Source of the DNA: a virus
Length of the DNA: 64,000 nucleotides
Strand: one strand, 5' to 3'
IMG/VR virus record: IMGVR_UViG_3300049719_000158
Span: 1-64,000 of that record
Shown here in pieces: positions 22,387-49,326 of this stretch (its first letter is position 1; the number at the start of each line of letters is the position of its first letter). The position numbers were made by a program, and so were the translations under genes. The notes under the pieces are model-generated. The model was not told the origin of the DNA, ran no database searches, and worked only from the letters and a program-made list of their open reading frames with translations.

Positions 22387-22739
22387 CTACACATGTGTGT
22401 GCCCAAATTTAAACGTTTTGCGTTCACCGTCTAGCGTCTCACCGAATTCTGTGATTGCTTCGTTGAGCTCGTCGAGTTCGTCTGACAACTTATCGAGCGC
22501 TGACGTGTCAAAGTCATTTTCTTCGTCGACTTCTAACATCCTATCGTATTTTTTACGCAATGCATGAGCTATTGTGATCAGTTCGTCGTTCCAACATTGT
22601 CTAAAACAAACTTGATCTCCCGACAGTATCAAATCGTACCCACACTTTCCGATATTATCTCAACATACACGTTGACGTTGTCAACTTTCCAGTAGTTGTT
22701 ATCAATTTTCAATGACAGTTCAACGTTCGAAATGTTCAT
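22387..22739 (-). pseudogene. Small acidic protein, frameshifted
   Basis: ATG 22739 overlaps the NADAR stop and encodes MNISNVELSLKIDNNYWKV...VEIISES. The frame then needs one extra base near 22635 (GTGGG) to continue as GYDLILSGDQVCFRQCWND...FKFGHTHV to 22387. Without the shift, only a 36-aa peptide and a TTG-started 81-aa frame exist. Confidence 0.5.
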
Positions 22740-23233
22740 GTCAATTCGTAACCTTTCAACCAATATGTTCGAATGTTCATTAAGATATTGCCAAGTTTAT
22801 TTTCTCCCGTGCCAGATCTGTAGTCTCGCCCCCAATACACGTCGTACCACGAGTTTAATTCAATGAGTTCTTTTTCTAGTGTTTCAATTAATTTGCAGCG
22901 TAGTTCAACATTTCTATAAAATTTGTCGAACAAAATTATTGACATCACGTCAAAACGTTTCTTATTCCATTCATTAGGCGTGTAAAGTTTGTTAAATGTC
23001 TCAAATTTCCATGCTTTCTTTGACTCACTCGGTGACATTGACGTGAACGATGACCTGTGTTCTGGTATTAGTTTTGCTGCTTGATACGCATTTTCACTGC
23101 TTGGATAAAGTAACATGTCAAAACATACATCACAGCGATGAAAATTTGATAACCATCTATAGTTATCAAAAAATCCTGCGATTTGTGTATCATCATGAAT
23201 GATGTACGTTTTGTAATCAATCATGTTTAACAT
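22736..23233 (-). CDS. NADAR (YbiA-like) family protein
   Basis: A 165-aa single-domain protein. AGFFDNYRWLSNFHRCDV, YPSSENAYQAAKL and WGRDYRSGTGENKLGNILM match the NADAR/YbiA family, which hydrolyses N-glycosidic bonds of ADP-ribose-type or riboflavin-pathway molecules. Members can remove ADP-ribose from guanine in DNA, so an anti-DarT or NAD-linked anti-defence role is plausible. GGAGATGAAAA gives a good site for ATG 23233. Confidence 0.82.
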   Translation of the reverse strand: MLNMIDYKTYIIHDDTQIAGFFDNYRWLSNFHRCDVCFDMLLYPSSENAYQAAKLIPEHRSSFTSMSPSESKKAWKFETFNKLYTPNEWNKKRFDVMSIILFDKFYRNVELRCKLIETLEKELIELNSWYDVYWGRDYRSGTGENKLGNILMNIRTYWLKGYELT

Positions 23234-33555: not shown

Positions 33556-34666
33556 TCATGGTGGATTACCTGAATGTGCTTCAACGTTAAAGTTTTTAAT
33601 TCCTAAAGTTTTCATTATGCGTTTTGCAAATCTTCGTAACGCGAGCGAATTTTTCGCGCCTACGCTTTTCTTTTGTTTGACTTCCTGCTTGTTTTGAGAA
33701 ATTAGTGATGCATTTCGTTTTCGAATTGTTGTTTCTGGATGATTTTGCGCTTCACGACAACGTTGAAGTTCAAGTTAAGTTTTCTTTCGTCCCAATTGAG
33801 TTTCTCGTTTTCGTTTTCTTGCTTCAGGCGTACCTTGCGCTTTTTTCATGTTCATTTTTGCTTCTTCAGATCTTTTTACGCCTGTTTGTCGAATTGATTT
33901 TGCACGACATTGTTCTTCAGATAATTTCCAACGTTTTCCTCTATGCTTACGTTTTTTCTCAATGACTTCCGGACGATTTTGCGCGGCGATCATATTTGCC
34001 CGCGCGATTGGTGTCGCAGGTCCACGTTTTTGTTGAGCGCGCGCCATGTTTTCACGTTGCTCGGGCGTACGTTTTTGACCAACCATTTTTAAACGACGCT
34101 TTTCTTGCGTACTTGGTCGATTTGCAACGTCTTTGTTACGCGCACAAAGCGCAGCGTGTCGAACAGGATCATTTTTTAATTCAACAATTGCTCTTCGTAA
34201 ACCTGCTGTTCGTTTTGCTTTTATTGTCGGATCATTTGCAGAACGTTTGTAATTTACCAATGCCTCATCTGATCTTTTTACGCCTTTGTTCGCTTTTGAA
34301 ATTAATTGTCGTGTTTCTTGACTAACGCCACGACCAACGACGCATTCTCCTCCGGGAGTTTGATTACACACGTATAATGTTTTTTGAAAATCAAACGTAC
34401 CATCTATATATTGACCTATACGTGTGAAGTTCTCTTATTAGAAGTTTTTCAACTTCAAAAGCTTCATTCTCATCGTCAGTCTCAAATCCGATAACACGTT
34501 TCCATTCATACTTTTTTGTATAACATTGATGTTGTCGATTACGACCTTTTTCGTTTACGCGATTTTCATTGCCTTTACCGACATATCCAGGAATGAATTC
34601 ACCGTCTTTTTCGATGAAATCAACATATACACAGAATTTCTTTGTGAGAATAAAACACTTCTCCAT
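33556..34666 (-). pseudogene. GIY-YIG/NUMOD3 homing endonuclease, broken twice
   Basis: The N-terminal frame (34391-34666) has KKFCVYVDFIEKDGEF and GYVGKG, a GIY-YIG core homologous to 10176. After a one-base shift near 34430 the second frame gives CNQTPGGECVVGRGVSQETR and four or more NUMOD3 repeats. TAA at 33775-33777 interrupts it, and the same frame continues NHPETTIRKRNASLISQNK to 33556. CCAAAGGAAATATTAA precedes the start. Confidence 0.65.
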
Positions 34667-38922: not shown

Positions 38923-39811
38923 TTACGTTAGTTCAATCGGTAAATCTTTACGTTTAAATTGCGCATCTGTGACGCGTATTAATTTTAATTCATTTTCATT
39001 AAAATATTTGTCTTGTTCACGATCTGTGAGATATTTTTTGTGTATCTGAACGTCACGCGGATGTTTATATTCAGCAATTACATCTAACGAGCGATTTAGA
39101 CCGTGCCAATAGACACCATCAAACTGAACATATGTATTAATATCTTTGATGTAAAAGTCTATTGGCCATCCTTTGATTGAAATTTGACGTTCAACATTGA
39201 TAAATTTTTTGCATAAAAATACGTAAAAATCGTCTTCTATTTTTGATTTTGCGTATGTACCATTTTTCTTCATTGTTTCATGTCGTTGTCTTGCACGTTT
39301 TTGTTGCGTCAAAATGAATTCTTAACATTATTCCATTGTCTTTAATATTTTTCCACATTTTCATAGTACCTGCGACTGCTTTTGCAAGCACTTCTGGGCG
39401 TGCGACATTACACTCAACACCATATTTTTCAATACACGTTTGTTTTATTTTTTCTTTCACACTTTTAGCTTGTTGATGATGTTCAACGCCAAAACGTACA
39501 AGACACGTTTGTTTTACTTTTTCTTTACATTCTTGTGTTTGAGAATAAAATTCAACACCGTTTTTATCAAAACAATTTTGTTTAATTGTTTGTCTTACTT
39601 CTTGCGCTTGCCATGGATTCTCAACGCCATAGTGAATAATACATGTTTCTTTAGATTTTTCTCTAATTTTTCCATGTCCAAGTGATATTTTCATACATTC
39701 AAGCGAACAATAATGACATTCACTTTCAATTGTTAATCCACCTCTGTGTTTGTTTTTACGTGAAAATTCTATACTACACGTATCACATTTTAACAAAACA
39801 TATTCAATCAT
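38923..39811 (-). pseudogene. EDxHD (Vsr-like) homing endonuclease, frameshifted
   Basis: The upstream frame (39278-39811) has repeats such as CIIHYGVENPWQAQEVR and CLVRFGVEHHQQAKSVKEK. The downstream frame (38923-39312) has SKIEDDFYVFLCKKF, GWPIDFYIKDINTYVQFDG and YWHGLNR, the nuclease core of the I-Bth0305I-like family. One indel near 39300 separates them. It sits between internal-protein genes. Confidence 0.7.
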
Positions 39812-39896
39812 TAAATGAGAATGAGATGGACGTTTGTGTGGTAAGAAATACGTAGATATAAACACATTAAAATTATAATATATGTGTTATTACTTG

Positions 39897-44255: not shown

Positions 44256-44284
44256 ACAATATCACACGTCACAAGTAGTTACAC
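44256..44284 (-). promoter_or_regulatory. Promoter of the recurrent type, short leader
   Basis: GTGTAA (44279-44284), 17-nt spacer ending GTGTGA, TATTGT (44256-44261). The start codon is 21 nt further and has a ribosome site, so the same promoter class also drives a leadered mRNA. Confidence 0.65.
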
Positions 44285-45039
44285 AAAACTTTCACTTCTT
44301 CATCAGTTAAGTCTTTCCATTCTTTGTCACGTAGCCTATTCAACAAACTGCCTTTGCATTGTCCGCAAGTCAACTTTCGAATGTCAGTGACAATGCGTTG
44401 TTTGAGCTCCTCAGGATTAACCCAATTTCCAACGTTTGTGCACGAAGTCGAAAGGTGTGTTTTAAGAGGTTTCATGAGTTTAACGTCTTTTGACAAAGAT
44501 ATACGAATAAGTTTCATATTGTGTTCATGAAAGTATTCATTTTGTTTTATGTCAATCAACATTTTGTGATGTATTTGACCATCACGTGGCGTACGATGTT
44601 TTGCAATTTCTTCTATTGGTCTATCAAGACCATGCCAATATGGGCCGTCATATTGAATGTATGTATCAATTGTATTCACGTAAAAATCAATTGCCCATAT
44701 TGTTGATTACTTTTTGTTTCGTTCACCAAAATCTTTGTCTAAGAAACGTGCACTTTCCATATATTTGTATGAACGTTGTTCAATGAGTGTTAATTCATCA
44801 CCATGAACAAATTTAAGTACACGATCAATTTGTTCATAAGTAAATGTTTTTTGTGTTTTAAAATTTGAACGATTACATCCTAATAGTAATCGAAGTGGTG
44901 TTGTTTTAAACGTACCGCGTTTGCTATCAACGCACGTGCAACGTCTCGCTATTGAAACATATGTTTCGTCAATAAGAGTAATTGTATTTCCGTGAAGAGA
45001 TTTAATGAACTCTTTTATGTCGTCAAGCGTATATTTCAC
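44269..45039 (-). pseudogene. EDxHD homing endonuclease with internal deletion
   Basis: The upstream frame (44707-45039, GTG start overlapping the glycosyltransferase stop) has the N-terminal repeat type also seen at 53734 (NTITLIDETYVSIARRCTC; ARFLDKDFGERNKK). It stops, and the next frame resumes within the nuclease core (WAIDFYVNTIDTYIQYDG; YWHGLDR) to 44269. About 150-200 residues in the middle are missing, including the first catalytic segment. Confidence 0.6.
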
Positions 45040-46307
45040 AATCCCATAATTTCCATTGCTTTTTGCGTCGTAGCTTCGTATGAACATCGTTCTCTAATAA
45101 CACGTTGCAAATTGTTTAAATGTTGTTGTTTTGATACTTGAAACGTATTCAATAGTTTATCGAGTGTATCAATAAAGTTTGAAAAATCTGGATTATACAA
45201 GAATGGATAACCCGCTTCTTTCGCTATTGCTGCGTATTCGTTACAATTTGCCCATATGGGCATCATACCAAGCGTTATACACTCTCTTGATGCAGTTCCT
45301 CCATACGTATCAACATCGTACGCGCCTATTACAACGTGTGAATTTTTTGCAACAAATTTATATTCGTTTCTATTAAACGCATTGCCGCCAATACTAATAT
45401 AGCCATGTGCGCCACACTTTTCTTCAAGTTGTTTATTTGAAAATTTCTGATTAGGATTTCCTGCGATAACAACAAAATCTTGTCGATGTTTGTAAAGTTT
45501 CGGAAGAATTTCAAACATAAATTTCATACCTCGAGTAAAATCATTACTTCCGGTACTGATACGATTAGGAAAAAACAGAATTTTCTTTCCCTTCGTCTTT
45601 TGTTCAAACTCACACATATCGAAACGTACGTTGTCATAATTTATTTCGGACGTAATTTCTGCAATCGAATATCCATCGTCATAGGGTGAGCTCTTCTTCA
45701 TGATTTCGTCAACGACTTTATCCTGTAAAACTTCTCTTGCATCATCTTCAAACTGATCAAGCGCCGTTTGACACTGCCAGAAATTATAATCAGCTTTTTG
45801 CGCCGCCTCAAGTTGTCCCAACCAAATTGACGCTTCTTCAGGAAATTTTGGATTTGTTGGACAATCAATAAAATGTGCATGGACAACAAATTTTGGCGTA
45901 TAACCAGCGCGTAAAAAGAATAATGCCTTATAGTGCCTCAATAATAGTGGATCGTTAACATAAACGATATCATAGCGCATGTTTGTGTACGGCTTCATGC
46001 GTGTTAAGCTAAGTGCTTCGTCCATTTCGTCTATGTTGAAATCGTAACGCGTTGCAAGTGCGTTTGGAATGACACGATGTGCCTTGTAAAGGACCATCCC
46101 TCCACCTTGAAATAAGTCAGGATTTATTTGTTCCGGTTGTTCAACGAGTTGTTCACGAAGTGGCCCTGTGATGTCAATCAGGAGATTGGGAGACAATTTC
46201 AACATCTCTCGAATTCGTCCGACACACATCTGCCAGCCGCTGTCTTGTCCTAACCCTGCTTTACCATTAATAAAATTGCTTAATTGCGTTTGGAAAAGTA
46301 CTCGCAT
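45036..46307 (-). CDS. Glycosyltransferase, GT4-like
   Basis: A 423-aa protein. The C-terminal Rossmann half holds FVVIAGNPNQKF, then YDVDTYGGTASRECITLGM, the G-x-E-like donor-binding segment of GT-B enzymes, and MMPIWANCNEYAAIAKEAG. No membrane anchor. With UXS- and GalE-like enzymes in the same genome, sugar transfer to DNA bases, lipopolysaccharide or virion proteins is possible; the acceptor is unknown. Confidence 0.7.
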   Translation of the reverse strand: MRVLFQTQLSNFINGKAGLGQDSGWQMCVGRIREMLKLSPNLLIDITGPLREQLVEQPEQINPDLFQGGGMVLYKAHRVIPNALATRYDFNIDEMDEALSLTRMKPYTNMRYDIVYVNDPLLLRHYKALFFLRAGYTPKFVVHAHFIDCPTNPKFPEEASIWLGQLEAAQKADYNFWQCQTALDQFEDDAREVLQDKVVDEIMKKSSPYDDGYSIAEITSEINYDNVRFDMCEFEQKTKGKKILFFPNRISTGSNDFTRGMKFMFEILPKLYKHRQDFVVIAGNPNQKFSNKQLEEKCGAHGYISIGGNAFNRNEYKFVAKNSHVVIGAYDVDTYGGTASRECITLGMMPIWANCNEYAAIAKEAGYPFLYNPDFSNFIDTLDKLLNTFQVSKQQHLNNLQRVIRERCSYEATTQKAMEIMGL

Positions 46308-46319
46308 ATGCTTCCTATT

Positions 46320-46547
46320 TTAATCACTGACCAAATTTTTGTTAAGCATTCCACGTTTTCGAACGCTGTAATTCACGTATCCTCTGCGTCTATGCGGAAA
46401 CTTATGTAAGTCTATGTTCATATCGTCCCATATGACGTCCCACAAAGGCGTGCTCATCGACCAATACGCATCATCGTTCTCGCCAGCGTCGATTGAACAC
46501 TGTACAATTAGATTGTAAATTTGTTGAGAATTACGTGCCAAATTCAT
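46320..46547 (-). CDS. Hypothetical protein, 75 aa
   Basis: The frame MNLARNSQQIYNLIVQCSID... ends with a basic segment (FPHRRRGYVNYSVRKRG). It overlaps the preceding gene by 17 nt. Function unknown. Confidence 0.6.
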   Translation of the reverse strand: MNLARNSQQIYNLIVQCSIDAGENDDAYWSMSTPLWDVIWDDMNIDLHKFPHRRRGYVNYSVRKRGMLNKNLVSD

Positions 46548-46803
46548 GTTCAGCAGTTATTTGTGTCATGTACCAAATCGCCATTTTCAATGGACAATAT
46601 TTATCAAGTAAAATTTCAGTGCAAATATTCAATTCCAACAAACATAATTTTGTGTAATTCCACTTATCACGACGAATTTGTTCATGCGTGAACTGTGGAA
46701 AATCTTTCAGTGTTCCATCAATTGGATGGTACCACTGTGGGTCGTCTTTGTACGCGTAAGACGCATATTGCATATCATGTTCATGGTGACATAATTCTAA
46801 CAT
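46531..46803 (-). CDS. Hypothetical protein, 90 aa
   Basis: His- and Tyr-rich start (MLELCHHEHDMQYASYAYKD), helical end. A GGAG site lies 8 nt before the ATG and the start overlaps the upstream stop (ATGTTAG). Confidence 0.6.
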   Translation of the reverse strand: MLELCHHEHDMQYASYAYKDDPQWYHPIDGTLKDFPQFTHEQIRRDKWNYTKLCLLELNICTEILLDKYCPLKMAIWYMTQITAEHEFGT

Positions 46804-46931
46804 TTCACGAACTCCATGATCGTCTTCACGATCTCGTGTTGCTTGTCTTCAAGGATTGTCTCATATCGTCCATTCAAATGCTCTTCATCGCTACACTTCA
46901 CGACCATTTCGTCAGTGAACACACGTAACAT
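46797..46931 (-). CDS. Small acidic protein, 44 aa
   Basis: MLRVFTDEMVVKCSDEEHLN... fits exactly between its neighbours, with its stop overlapping the next start. It may be an unknown helical protein. Confidence 0.55.
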   Translation of the reverse strand: MLRVFTDEMVVKCSDEEHLNGRYETILEDKQHEIVKTIMEFVKC

Positions 46932-46932
46932 A

Positions 46933-47178
46933 TTATTTTCTTTTCTGGACACTTTCACGATAACGTTTAAGTAATTTATTGATCGAACTACTTGAACAAT
47001 TCAGCATTTTTGCGATATTATCGACTGACATTGTTTTTCGAAACTTAGCTACTTTTTCGTCATCAAGTTTTAATAACTTACCACGTGGTAAACGTTTATT
47101 TGTGACAAATATACCCGCATTAGATGCATTTTTTAAAATTTTGGTAATTTCTTTAAATGAACAGTCATAAGCATTCAT
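46933..47178 (-). CDS. HTH protein, likely DNA-binding module of the homing element
   Basis: An 81-aa basic protein. LDDEKVAKFRKTMSVDNIAK followed by SSSINKLLKRYRES is a resolvase/NUMOD-type helix-turn-helix. It starts in a TAATG overlap with the GIY-YIG fusion gene, so it may act with it or be its split-off C-terminus. Confidence 0.6.
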   Translation of the reverse strand: MNAYDCSFKEITKILKNASNAGIFVTNKRLPRGKLLKLDDEKVAKFRKTMSVDNIAKMLNCSSSSINKLLKRYRESVQKRK

Positions 47179-48221
47179 TATTTCACCATATGTACAGCCG
47201 CTATTTTTTTGTGCATTACTTCAGGCCATTCAATAAATTCAAGCACCTCTTTTACTTGACGATCTAAATCTTCGTCATCAACATAAAGTATATGAACGTT
47301 ACCATGTGACCAGTTTTTAAAACAATGATAAAGTTCTGAAATATATGTTAACGCTTTTTCATTTATTGTTGGGTCTAAATCATCACATATTCCAACAAAT
47401 GATTTTCTGGTGCATATCAAAATTTTTGCACCAATTTTGGTGTAATCATAATCTAACTTACGTAACATCCTCAAATCTGTTTCACGCTTAAAATATTGTG
47501 CATAAACCCATTCACACATATATGCACGATCAACTAATACACTTGTACACAATTGATATAATACATCCACAAAACGTGGTTCTGCATATCGTATTTCATT
47601 AATAAATCTATCTTGAGATAACAAGAAATTTTCATGTTCGTTTGAAACTTTAAAATAATTTATTCCTGTTATACGTTCAATTTCTCTAAGAATTGTTGTT
47701 TTTCCACATCTATCGGGTCCACCGCATAAAAGAACAACTTGTTGAGGATTTCCTCGACGATTTGTTCGTTCTTGAGCATTTTTGTGTTTTATACGATCTT
47801 CTTCTGACCACTTACGACCCATTCCTGCTTTACTTAAATTTGAATGAGTTTCAGTGGAAACAATTCTGTGCCACGACGACATTTTTAATTTTGTTTCAAA
47901 CGTCATTTCGCACCCGCACATTCCTTCACCTCCACGTGTCATATTGTATCCTTTGTCAGGATAATCATATATGAACGTTTGGTGCTCAGAAATTAGACGA
48001 ATTTCTGCACTTTTTGCTTCTTCGCAAGAAGCAAATTCACCCAATATTTCATGTATCCATGCATCAATACCGTATTTTTGTATTGCTCTATGAAAAGCGT
48101 ATTTTGATCCTCGCTTTGCTGATTTAATATGTCCTCGCCAGCATTCACTAATAGATGAATTAGTCCATCCAATGTACGCTTTTCCGTTAGTTGAATTTGT
48201 ATGTTTATATACAAGAGGCAT
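47178..48221 (-). CDS. GIY-YIG endonuclease fused to a P-loop nucleotide-kinase-like domain
   Basis: A 347-aa protein; ATG 48221 is chosen from the promoter position. Residues 1-95 are GIY-YIG (LVYKHTNSTNGKAYIGWTN; HRAIQKYGIDAWIHEIL), 100-160 hold a NUMOD3-like part (TFETKLKMSSWH; GRKWSEEDRIKHKNAQERTN). From about 168, VVLLCGGPDRCGKTTILREI is a Walker A typical of dNMP/thymidylate kinases, with SVLVDRAYMCEWVYAQYF as the DRxxxSxxAY-like segment and VHILYVDDEDL near the end. The combination is unusual; a homing element captured in frame with a kinase gene is likely. Confidence 0.72.
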   Translation of the reverse strand: MPLVYKHTNSTNGKAYIGWTNSSISECWRGHIKSAKRGSKYAFHRAIQKYGIDAWIHEILGEFASCEEAKSAEIRLISEHQTFIYDYPDKGYNMTRGGEGMCGCEMTFETKLKMSSWHRIVSTETHSNLSKAGMGRKWSEEDRIKHKNAQERTNRRGNPQQVVLLCGGPDRCGKTTILREIERITGINYFKVSNEHENFLLSQDRFINEIRYAEPRFVDVLYQLCTSVLVDRAYMCEWVYAQYFKRETDLRMLRKLDYDYTKIGAKILICTRKSFVGICDDLDPTINEKALTYISELYHCFKNWSHGNVHILYVDDEDLDRQVKEVLEFIEWPEVMHKKIAAVHMVK

Positions 48222-48229
48222 GTGACAAT

Positions 48230-48259
48230 ATTCTATTCTAACCAACGACAATTGTACAC
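48230..48259 (-). promoter_or_regulatory. Recurrent-type promoter of the fusion gene
   Basis: GTGTAC (48254-48259), 18-nt spacer, TAGAAT (48230-48235), 8 nt to ATG 48221. Spacing is slightly off the usual 17/6. Confidence 0.5.
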
Positions 48260-48260
48260 A

Positions 48261-48395
48261 CTACAATAACTTAAACTCTGGATGTTCTTCGAGAAGAACA
48301 CGCATTGCAACGTCGTAGTCGTTCGGTTCAATGAACGAAAATCTCAATGCCCACCCAAGTGCTTCATGAATGATATCAAATTCCTTTTAAGACAT
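48261..48395 (-). pseudogene. Small protein with TAA at codon 3
   Basis: ATG 48395 directly follows the upstream stop. The frame is Met-Ser-TAA (48387-48389) and then stays open as KEFDIIHEALGWALRFSFIE...EHPEFKLL to 48261, clearly protein-like. AAAAGGAA right after the TAA could also serve a non-ATG start. Confidence 0.45.
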
Positions 48396-48533
48396 TTAAT
48401 TGTCTTCCTTTTCGTCAGGAACGTTCAAAAACACGTACATCGACAATAATGCCAAGACTATTGCGACGAACAACCACGCGTCTTGCGTCATGTGTGGCCA
48501 TTGAAAGTGAACGAGCCACGTTGGGGGCTTCAT
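48396..48533 (-). CDS. Small membrane protein, 45 aa
   Basis: It starts in an ATGA overlap and has one transmembrane helix (WLFVAIVLALLSMYVFL) with an acidic tail. Function unknown. Confidence 0.6.
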   Translation of the reverse strand: MKPPTWLVHFQWPHMTQDAWLFVAIVLALLSMYVFLNVPDEKEDN

Positions 48534-48835
48534 TGTTCGACGATGCTACGCACCGCCTCAGAGAAGTTTGTGAAAGCTTGCTTTGCGACGAGGCCTATGT
48601 ACCATCCTATGCCTCCAAACGACAACTTATACGCATAACCTCCGCGCTTGCCTGCGTTATCAATGCGGGCAACGAGTTGTTCGTCGTGCATCTTCTTCAA
48701 CGCGCTCGCAACAGTCGCAGAAGACAGATGCGTAGAAAAAATTTTGTTGAGTTCAGCAACTAACTGAGCGCACGTCATTGATTTTGGCGAACGTCCGAGA
48801 ATTATTAAAAGTTGCTGTCGAATGGTGAGCGTCAT
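48530..48835 (-). CDS. Winged-helix DNA-binding protein, 101 aa
   Basis: MTLTIRQQLLIILGRSPKSM, then TVASALKKMHDEQLVARID and GGYAYKL form a winged helix-turn-helix, so a transcription regulator is likely. The last 30 residues are hydrophobic/aromatic (IGWYIGLVAKQAF) and may contact the membrane or dimerise. GAAAAGGTAAG precedes the ATG. Confidence 0.65.
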   Translation of the reverse strand: MTLTIRQQLLIILGRSPKSMTCAQLVAELNKIFSTHLSSATVASALKKMHDEQLVARIDNAGKRGGYAYKLSFGGIGWYIGLVAKQAFTNFSEAVRSIVEQ

Positions 48836-48886
48836 AAACTTACCTTTTCTTGTTTTTCTTTTCTACTTTCGAATCCAAGCTTTTTT

Positions 48887-49087
48887 CTATTTGCGTTCCA
48901 ATATTGCAATTTGCAACGTTGCGTAGTCATCGCCCATGTGATGCCCACACACAGGATAAACGTGCCTGTAACCTATCATAAGATATGCTCCTCGTGGATT
49001 TGGACACCCGCACTGCAAACACCAAACAAAGCGCTTTCGCCACGTGCATCGGTGCCATAAAGCAAATCGCCATCCAACATGTGTCAT
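48887..49087 (-). CDS. Trp/Cys-rich zinc-binding-like protein, 66 aa
   Basis: It starts in a TGATG overlap with the lipoprotein stop. RKRFVWCLQCGCPNPRGAYL and VYPVCGHHMG give Cys/His pairs for a zinc site. Function unknown. Confidence 0.6.
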   Translation of the reverse strand: MTHVGWRFALWHRCTWRKRFVWCLQCGCPNPRGAYLMIGYRHVYPVCGHHMGDDYATLQIAILERK

Positions 49088-49326
49088 CACTTGCACTCTT
49101 TACAATAAGTCTCGCATAGACTATGCTCACAACACCACTTCTTTTCACACCCTGAAACGACCCAAAACTTGGGTTCACTAAACGCTTTTGAGTACGTGCC
49201 CTTGAAACCTGAGACAAACGTGAGGTTGGTGCACTTCGTCATGTATTGACTTATTTGCATACGATCGTCGTATGAAATGCAGCTGAACAAAGATAAAGAA
49301 ACGAGCATTGCTAGAATTGTTTTCAT
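49087..49326 (-). CDS. Small Cys-rich lipoprotein, 79 aa
   Basis: MKTILAMLVSLSLFSC is a lipoprotein signal with lipid Cys 16. Eight further Cys lie in the mature part (CEKKWCCEHSLCETYCKEC). Likely anchored in the outer or inner membrane. The start overlaps the preceding damaged frame. Confidence 0.7.
   Translation of the reverse strand: MKTILAMLVSLSLFSCISYDDRMQISQYMTKCTNLTFVSGFKGTYSKAFSEPKFWVVSGCEKKWCCEHSLCETYCKECK

Follow-up and report, generated by a model that had tools for sequence, protein, structure and literature searches.

Some free-standing homing endonuclease genes of phage T4 lie beside genes of nucleotide metabolism, with segF beside gene 56 and mobE beside nrdA/nrdB (PMC2988022). 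The Seg proteins of T-even phages carry a GIY-YIG domain, as does the phage gene described here, and SegF shares with it the neighborhood of a nucleotide-metabolism gene (PMC2988022). GIY-YIG domains are also fused to many other partners, and single fusions may reflect mobility and not function (Dunin-Horkawicz et al. 2006, PMC1564403). Among the phages that we compared, Vibrio phages VP-1 and 1.244.A encode nucleases of the same GIY-YIG subfamily as ours (34–35% identical) in frame with the terminase large subunit. In VP-1 (positions 1-2196 of the locus), the terminase ORF also appears by eye to hold an intein in its ATPase part, and thus two mobile elements would share one frame. On the kinase side, YorR of Bacillus phage SPbeta (PDB 2axp, 3kb2) and the "thymidylate kinases" of T4-like phages (phrog_761) are stand-alone proteins without a nuclease.

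The locus studied here lies in a window of 64,000 nucleotides, the whole stretch of viral DNA that was analyzed, and differs from all of these systems. Unlike the Seg proteins as described in PMC2988022, its GIY-YIG ORF is fused in frame to its neighbor, lacks the catalytic arginine, and no C-terminal DNA-binding part was found in it. In the Vibrio phages the nuclease is C-terminal to a partial terminase, the rest of which is a separate ORF, and the arginine is kept, whereas in the window the nuclease is N-terminal and the partner, a thymidylate kinase-like (TMK-like) domain, is complete. GIY-YIG fusions to other proteins are already known, and the pairing with a kinase is new among those examined.

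The fused ORF is at 47178..48221 on the minus strand. Read from 48221 to 47178, it translates as 347 aa from an ATG start to a TAA stop, while the plus strand over the same positions is full of stops. A TTG 10 codons upstream of the ATG would give an alternative product of 357 aa. Since 347 open codons have a probability of about 6e-14 at the base composition of this ORF, the frame is not a chance one, and codon periodicity is strong in both halves. The single frame joining nuclease and kinase that an earlier sequence-only reading had proposed was thus borne out, on the minus strand, and the fusion of a GIY-YIG homing-endonuclease half to a kinase half in one frame is confirmed. The GIY-YIG domain occupies about aa 1-100 (47922..48221, minus strand) and is followed by a linker with NUMOD3-like repeats at aa ~101-156 (47754..47921, minus strand). 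The two halves meet at aa ~156-161, and the link to the kinase N-terminus is only about 10 residues long. There is a short inverted repeat at the joint (47739-47760). A scan of the region for promoters and terminators gave results near chance (10 found against 7.1 expected, and two terminator-like against 1.1 expected). A search of the fusion against a defense-system library returned homing-endonuclease models and weak P-loop matches only, and the structure model of the whole fused protein was poor (pLDDT 50) and was left out of the evidence.

The GIY-YIG assignment of the first half held up. Pfam PF01541 matches aa 2-82 with 25.8 bits, above the gathering score of 22.6, and phrog_314 matches aa 1-158 (1.5e-30). 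Phrog_7168 (homing endonuclease) also matches (4.6e-19), and NCBIfam TIGR01453 (group I intron endonuclease) matches aa 4-151 (1.3e-13) with 51.5 bits, slightly under its cut-off of 56.05. The NUMOD3-like part, which had been read from the sequence as well, can plausibly be recognized by eye, whereas the Pfam matches of the fused protein at E ≤ 1 do not include NUMOD3. To place this half among its relatives, we translated 99 loci in six frames and took all stop-to-stop ORFs that reach 60 aa. These gave 2,882 ORFs, of which 94 are GIY-YIG at E ≤ 1e-4; 85 of the 94 come from the 80 best of the 220 GIY-YIG relatives confirmed in viral contigs. After the window's own ORF and identical copies had been removed, 72 distinct GIY-YIG stretches were aligned with the first 110 residues of the fused protein. 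Y5, Y16, G18, K49, E73, N93, G97, and G98 are invariant in all 72 relatives and in the window, and His31, which is also kept, is common to 66 of them. However, the catalytic set of Tyr, Tyr, Arg, His, Glu, and Asn is incomplete, as codon 27 (48141..48143, minus strand) encodes Cys where 71 of the 72 relatives have Arg. The one exception, from Acinetobacter phage Octan, is poorly aligned at this position. Position 27 corresponds to Arg27 of I-TevI and I-BmoI, which is of critical importance for catalysis (PMC1952068, PMC3161791). The nuclease half is therefore probably dead or weak. Since the I-TevI R27A mutant retains residual activity (PMC1952068), some nuclease function may remain. This half thus descends from the GIY-YIG homing branch but, with Cys27 in place of the catalytic Arg, is only a putative working member of it.

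The kinase half (aa 157-347; 47181..47753, minus strand) is a complete TMK-like P-loop kinase domain, where a P-loop kinase-like domain had been proposed. It carries a GPDRCGKTT P-loop and DRAYMCEWVY, and all of the kinase motifs compared (P-loop, DRxYxxEWVY) are kept. The Walker A motif GPDRCGKT (aa 168-175; 47697..47720, minus strand) is identical in two stand-alone phage kinases, those of viral contigs L003 and L008. The first of these, a 179-aa ORF found with the kinase half as query, aligns from end to end with the window kinase, with flush N-termini and 57 of 175 residues identical (33%, E 3e-27 as a pair; L003 aa 1-171 are aligned). Phrog_761, the PHROG thymidylate kinase family, scores 2.3e-40 with a protein of a T4-like Yersinia phage, 3e-15 with L003, 1.2e-12 with L008, and 3.7e-4 with the window half. 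The curated Pfam Thymidylate_kin cut-off is met by none of these four (PF02223; window half 14.9 bits against 27), and for NCBIfam TIGR00041 (dTMP kinase) no match was listed for the fused protein, while L003 scored 21 against 83.25 bits. For this reason we call the domain TMK-like and not a thymidylate kinase. A profile of the three kinases found YorR of SPbeta as its best PDB match (E 1.5e-4). Consistent with this, the structure model of the kinase half (pLDDT 63, pTM 0.65) gave YorR first with Foldseek (E 2.6e-5), and in a second fold comparison thymidylate kinases came first (Z 11.5, rmsd 4.5, 160 aligned residues) and YorR scored Z 10.9. Protein P0003, compared together with YorR and the T4-like phrog_761 kinases, is 25% identical to L003. 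Kinase activity is predicted, and the domain looks intact.

There are two other kinases of this broad sort in the window, at about 57555-58112 (phrog_2107) and about 60545-61171 (Pfam TMK 4.4e-12), and the fused kinase is thus the third TMK-like protein. The Walker A of the fused kinase had been likened to that of the NTPase at 57555. The likeness holds for the P-loop (9 of 15 residues) but does not extend beyond it, and the profile match is weak (probability 45%). Neither of the two is a close relative of the fused kinase, and paralogy with either is unsupported. Elsewhere in the window, at 22739-23233 on the minus strand, there is a NADAR-domain protein (Pfam PF08719, 3.2e-20), a family that is tied to NAD/ADP-ribose metabolism.

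Occurrence of the kinase alone in relatives, suggested earlier as a check, was found in the viral contigs L003 and L008 (IMGVR_UViG_3300023210_000014), and alignment searches of viral contigs yielded no kinase relatives besides these two. Five further loci from genome contigs look like ordinary bacterial dTMP kinases (L010 was read; all five score weakly). In L003, the kinase gene is grouped with those for ribonucleotide reductase, dUTPase, and DNA polymerase B, as named from their translations. L003 and L008 are syntenic, sharing a small Zn-ribbon-like ORF (38% identical), the kinase (59%), dUTPase (72%), and DNA polymerase B (68%). The small upstream ORF is separated from the kinase by 57 nt in L003 but by 966 nt in L008. 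This 966-nt stretch holds a 309-aa endonuclease ORF (NUMOD3 1.5e-8, TnsA-like 0.001, phrog_15427 endonuclease 5.9e-11) that runs at its 3' end into the kinase gene, overlapping the TTG start; AAGGAG lies shortly before this TTG. L008 therefore resembles the window in that a gene of this kinase family has an endonuclease gene at its 5' end. It differs in that the nuclease belongs to another family and is a separate, overlapping ORF, and the kinase keeps its own TTG start. As the window kinase is only 33% identical to that of L003, the parallel is one of place and not of event. Of the three close members of this kinase family identified in the analysis, two (the window and L008) thus have an endonuclease at the 5' end of the kinase, and the two nucleases are unrelated, which suggests that the 5' end of the kinase gene is a place where unrelated endonuclease genes settle.

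The window kinase has no start of its own. The fusion point is its natural N-terminus, so nothing interrupts the kinase, and its own start is gone. Close to the junction, the frame offers just two possible starts, ATG114 and ATG134, neither of which has a properly spaced Shine-Dalgarno sequence. From aa 135 to 199 it contains no ATG, GTG, or TTG, and the next common start codon, TTG200, is inside the kinase. We therefore rejected an internal start from which the kinase would be expressed separately. Separate production of the two domains, by internal initiation or by splicing, would have counted against a single fused protein, and we found no usable start and no sign of splicing.

The composition of the fused gene sets it apart from most of the window. 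The GIY-YIG half has a third-position GC (GC3) of 0.23 and the kinase half one of 0.17, and the helix-turn-helix (HTH) ORF that follows has 0.21, compared with 0.46-0.56 for GalE, the DnaE halves, RNR, and the kinases at 57555 and 60545. When the 41 largely non-overlapping ORFs that reach 150 aa are ranked by GC3, the fused ORF comes second from the bottom, and the four lowest are all of homing-endonuclease type: the fused ORF, 39281-39865 (DUF7487), 52499-53794 (DUF7487), and 33778-34371 (NUMOD3). In L003, GC3 is 0.19 for the kinase and 0.23 for DNA polymerase B. Since the fused gene shares the AT-rich third positions of the phage's other homing genes, the two halves probably arrived together, and the composition is most simply explained by joint entry of nuclease and kinase from an AT-rich phage. 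Low GC3 is, however, no proof by itself, as it is not unique to homing genes: a glycosyltransferase-like ORF at 45039-46307, named from its translation and without a Pfam or PHROG family match, has a GC3 of 0.32.

Several other homing genes were seen in the window. The DUF7487 homing-type ORF at 39281-39865 (minus strand) has the lowest GC3 (0.18) of the 41 ORFs. The gene dnaE (DNA polymerase III alpha) is in two ORFs, 53897-56650 and 50607-52508 (minus strand), with a DUF7487-type homing endonuclease ORF between them at about 52496-53794, an arrangement which we take to resemble a "fractured gene". Judged from motifs seen by eye, both halves of dnaE seem to contain a mini-intein, and for the C half there is also a Pfam intein match (9.5e-6). 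Over 60 aa, an ORF at about 44269-44679 (minus strand) shares 48% identity with the C-terminal part of the endonuclease at about 52496-53794, and 44707-45087 (minus strand) resembles its N-terminal repeats by eye, the two together being a decayed copy. Furthermore, a GIY-YIG-like 91-aa ORF at 34391-34666 (minus strand, by eye) is followed by a NUMOD3 ORF at about 33775-34371, and these are probably one homing endonuclease broken in two.

The explanation that we favor, with moderate confidence, is that a homing gene inserted itself just where a kinase gene begins, became fused to it in frame, and lost most or all of its cutting activity, while dependence on the kinase keeps the frame open. A free-standing GIY-YIG homing endonuclease gene would have arrived at the 5' end of a phage TMK-like gene, by homing or otherwise, its target being perhaps the conserved stretch that encodes the P-loop. 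It would then have fused in frame, and the kinase, having lost its own start, would now be produced solely as the C-terminal part of the fused protein. This phage would later have acquired the fused cassette from a source genome richer in AT. Having lost its catalytic arginine, the nuclease half is probably inactive or crippled. The outcome would be a kinase whose N-terminal domain is a former homing nuclease that may still bind DNA. The frame of the nuclease may be unbroken because any frameshift or stop in it would cost the phage its kinase as well, and the contrast with the other homing genes of the window that are in pieces (44272-44679, 33775-34666) fits this locking of the frame. We infer the insertion as origin, the transfer, the loss of cutting, the kinase activity, and the selection for frame from sequence comparison. 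The proposal that a homing element was captured in a kinase gene and kept as one protein was thus right in part. A homing-type nuclease is joined to a kinase in one protein, but the kinase is uninterrupted and the fusion is at its natural N-terminus. No sister phage without the insert was found by a search of viral contigs with the C part of DnaE or by a 24-kb megablast against phages, and so the insertion in this phage is not seen directly.

Alternatively, the nuclease might still home, with the useful kinase guarding it against loss, since its removal would take away the start of the kinase. Cutting would be slow because Arg27 is missing or is functionally replaced by Arg29. All other active-site columns are kept, the residual activity of I-TevI R27A (PMC1952068) would allow for slow cutting, and two of the three close kinase genes have an endonuclease at their 5' end. 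However, Arg is found at position 27 in 71 of 72 relatives, and Arg29 is unlikely to be catalytic because its column varies (K, N, R, S, Q, G). Moreover, the HTH-like C-terminal part that was seen by eye in the close relatives L020, L021, and L023 is absent from the fusion. We therefore consider a working chimera of this kind unlikely. A nuclease that uses a nucleotide substrate, which had also been proposed, is likewise unlikely, as Cys27 replaces the catalytic arginine.

The fusion might also be a new composite enzyme selected as one machine, in which the nuclease-derived half serves as a DNA-binding or localizing domain for the kinase, or the kinase controls the nuclease. The open frame with strong codon periodicity in both halves is consistent with this, and the presence of a third TMK-like protein besides those at 57555 and 60545 leaves room for a special role. 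However, the fusion is a single example. The kinase profile matches only one of the 94 GIY-YIG ORFs examined, the window's own, and the other three ORFs among the four with a G....GK[ST] pattern have no kinase match. The median length of these ORFs is 229 aa, and only three exceed 330 aa, namely that of the window and the two Vibrio terminase fusions, which were taken from the top phage matches. When the whole fused protein was searched by tblastn against 50,697 phage records, 774 matched and none covered 80% of the query. No GIY-YIG/thymidylate-kinase fusion was found in the titles and abstract openings of open-licence PMC papers, and PMC3853054 reports GIY-YIG and thymidylate kinase as different genes. 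The possibility that the fusion is widespread or already described, which would have spoken against its being new, thus gained no support from these ORFs or papers. A single GIY-YIG fusion may mirror mobility and not function (PMC1564403), and we regard a composite enzyme as improbable. About equally improbable is a taming by fusion, in which the nuclease, once in frame with a gene that the phage needs, can no longer lose its frame to a stop or frameshift and can decay only at its active site, and would now be a DNA-binding domain that places the kinase on DNA.

An accident or artifact is also rather improbable, be it a functionless dead-end fusion or a sequencing or assembly error that deleted the stop between two neighboring genes. 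The fusion is known from one metagenomic contig, no second copy was found in our searches, and an assembly or base error could create the joint or Cys27. On the other hand, the kinase has no start of its own near its N-terminus, and thus undoing one error would not restore an ordinary kinase gene. Both halves also share composition and codon periodicity.

Downstream, an 81-aa HTH ORF at 46933..47178 (minus strand) has an ATG that overlaps the stop of the fused ORF by one base (TAATGA), and the two may be translationally coupled. A comparable TAATGA overlap is described for nrdA/mobE of T4 (PMC2988022). One could suppose that the kinase was inserted into a homing endonuclease gene whose C-terminal HTH part is now this ORF. 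The overlap would fit, and positions 1-130 of the phrog_7168 profile match the fused ORF and 208-268 the HTH ORF, the latter weakly (E 0.0073). But the best PHROG match of the HTH ORF is a transcription regulator (2.3e-5), and its score of 48 against the best of 93 homing-endonuclease tails is not above those of shuffled copies (average 45.1, sd 4.6). The HTH ORF was therefore rejected as a split tail, and a nuclease divided in this way is very unlikely. No relatives of the HTH ORF were confirmed in viral contigs, and phage records yielded just two matches, both weak (E 0.2 and 0.4).

GIY-YIG genes are often located in group I introns. A spliced gene, with the GIY-YIG part in an intron or intein that is removed, would agree with that location and with the TIGR01453 match but is barely credible, as the splicing check at the junction gave no group I or II intron with Rfam at gathering or at E ≤ 10 in 46300-49300 and no Hint or intein family among Pfam matches of the fused ORF at E ≤ 1 (the same search lists Intein_splicing at 9.5e-6 for the dnaE ORF), the link of about 10 residues leaves no room for an intron core or a Hint domain, and no 5' exon of the kinase is seen upstream.

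The usual view of homing genes is that they are gained, decay by frameshift or deletion, and disappear. Locking of the frame by fusion would give such a selfish nuclease another fate, that of a permanent domain in a useful enzyme, and the order of events, fusion and then loss of cutting, is suggested here by one sequence. L003 and L008 would mark the 5' end of the kinase gene as a settling place of unrelated endonuclease genes, perhaps through recognition of the conserved P-loop codons. With a cutting half that is without a key catalytic residue and a kinase half that looks intact, the fusion may show how a selfish gene is tamed.
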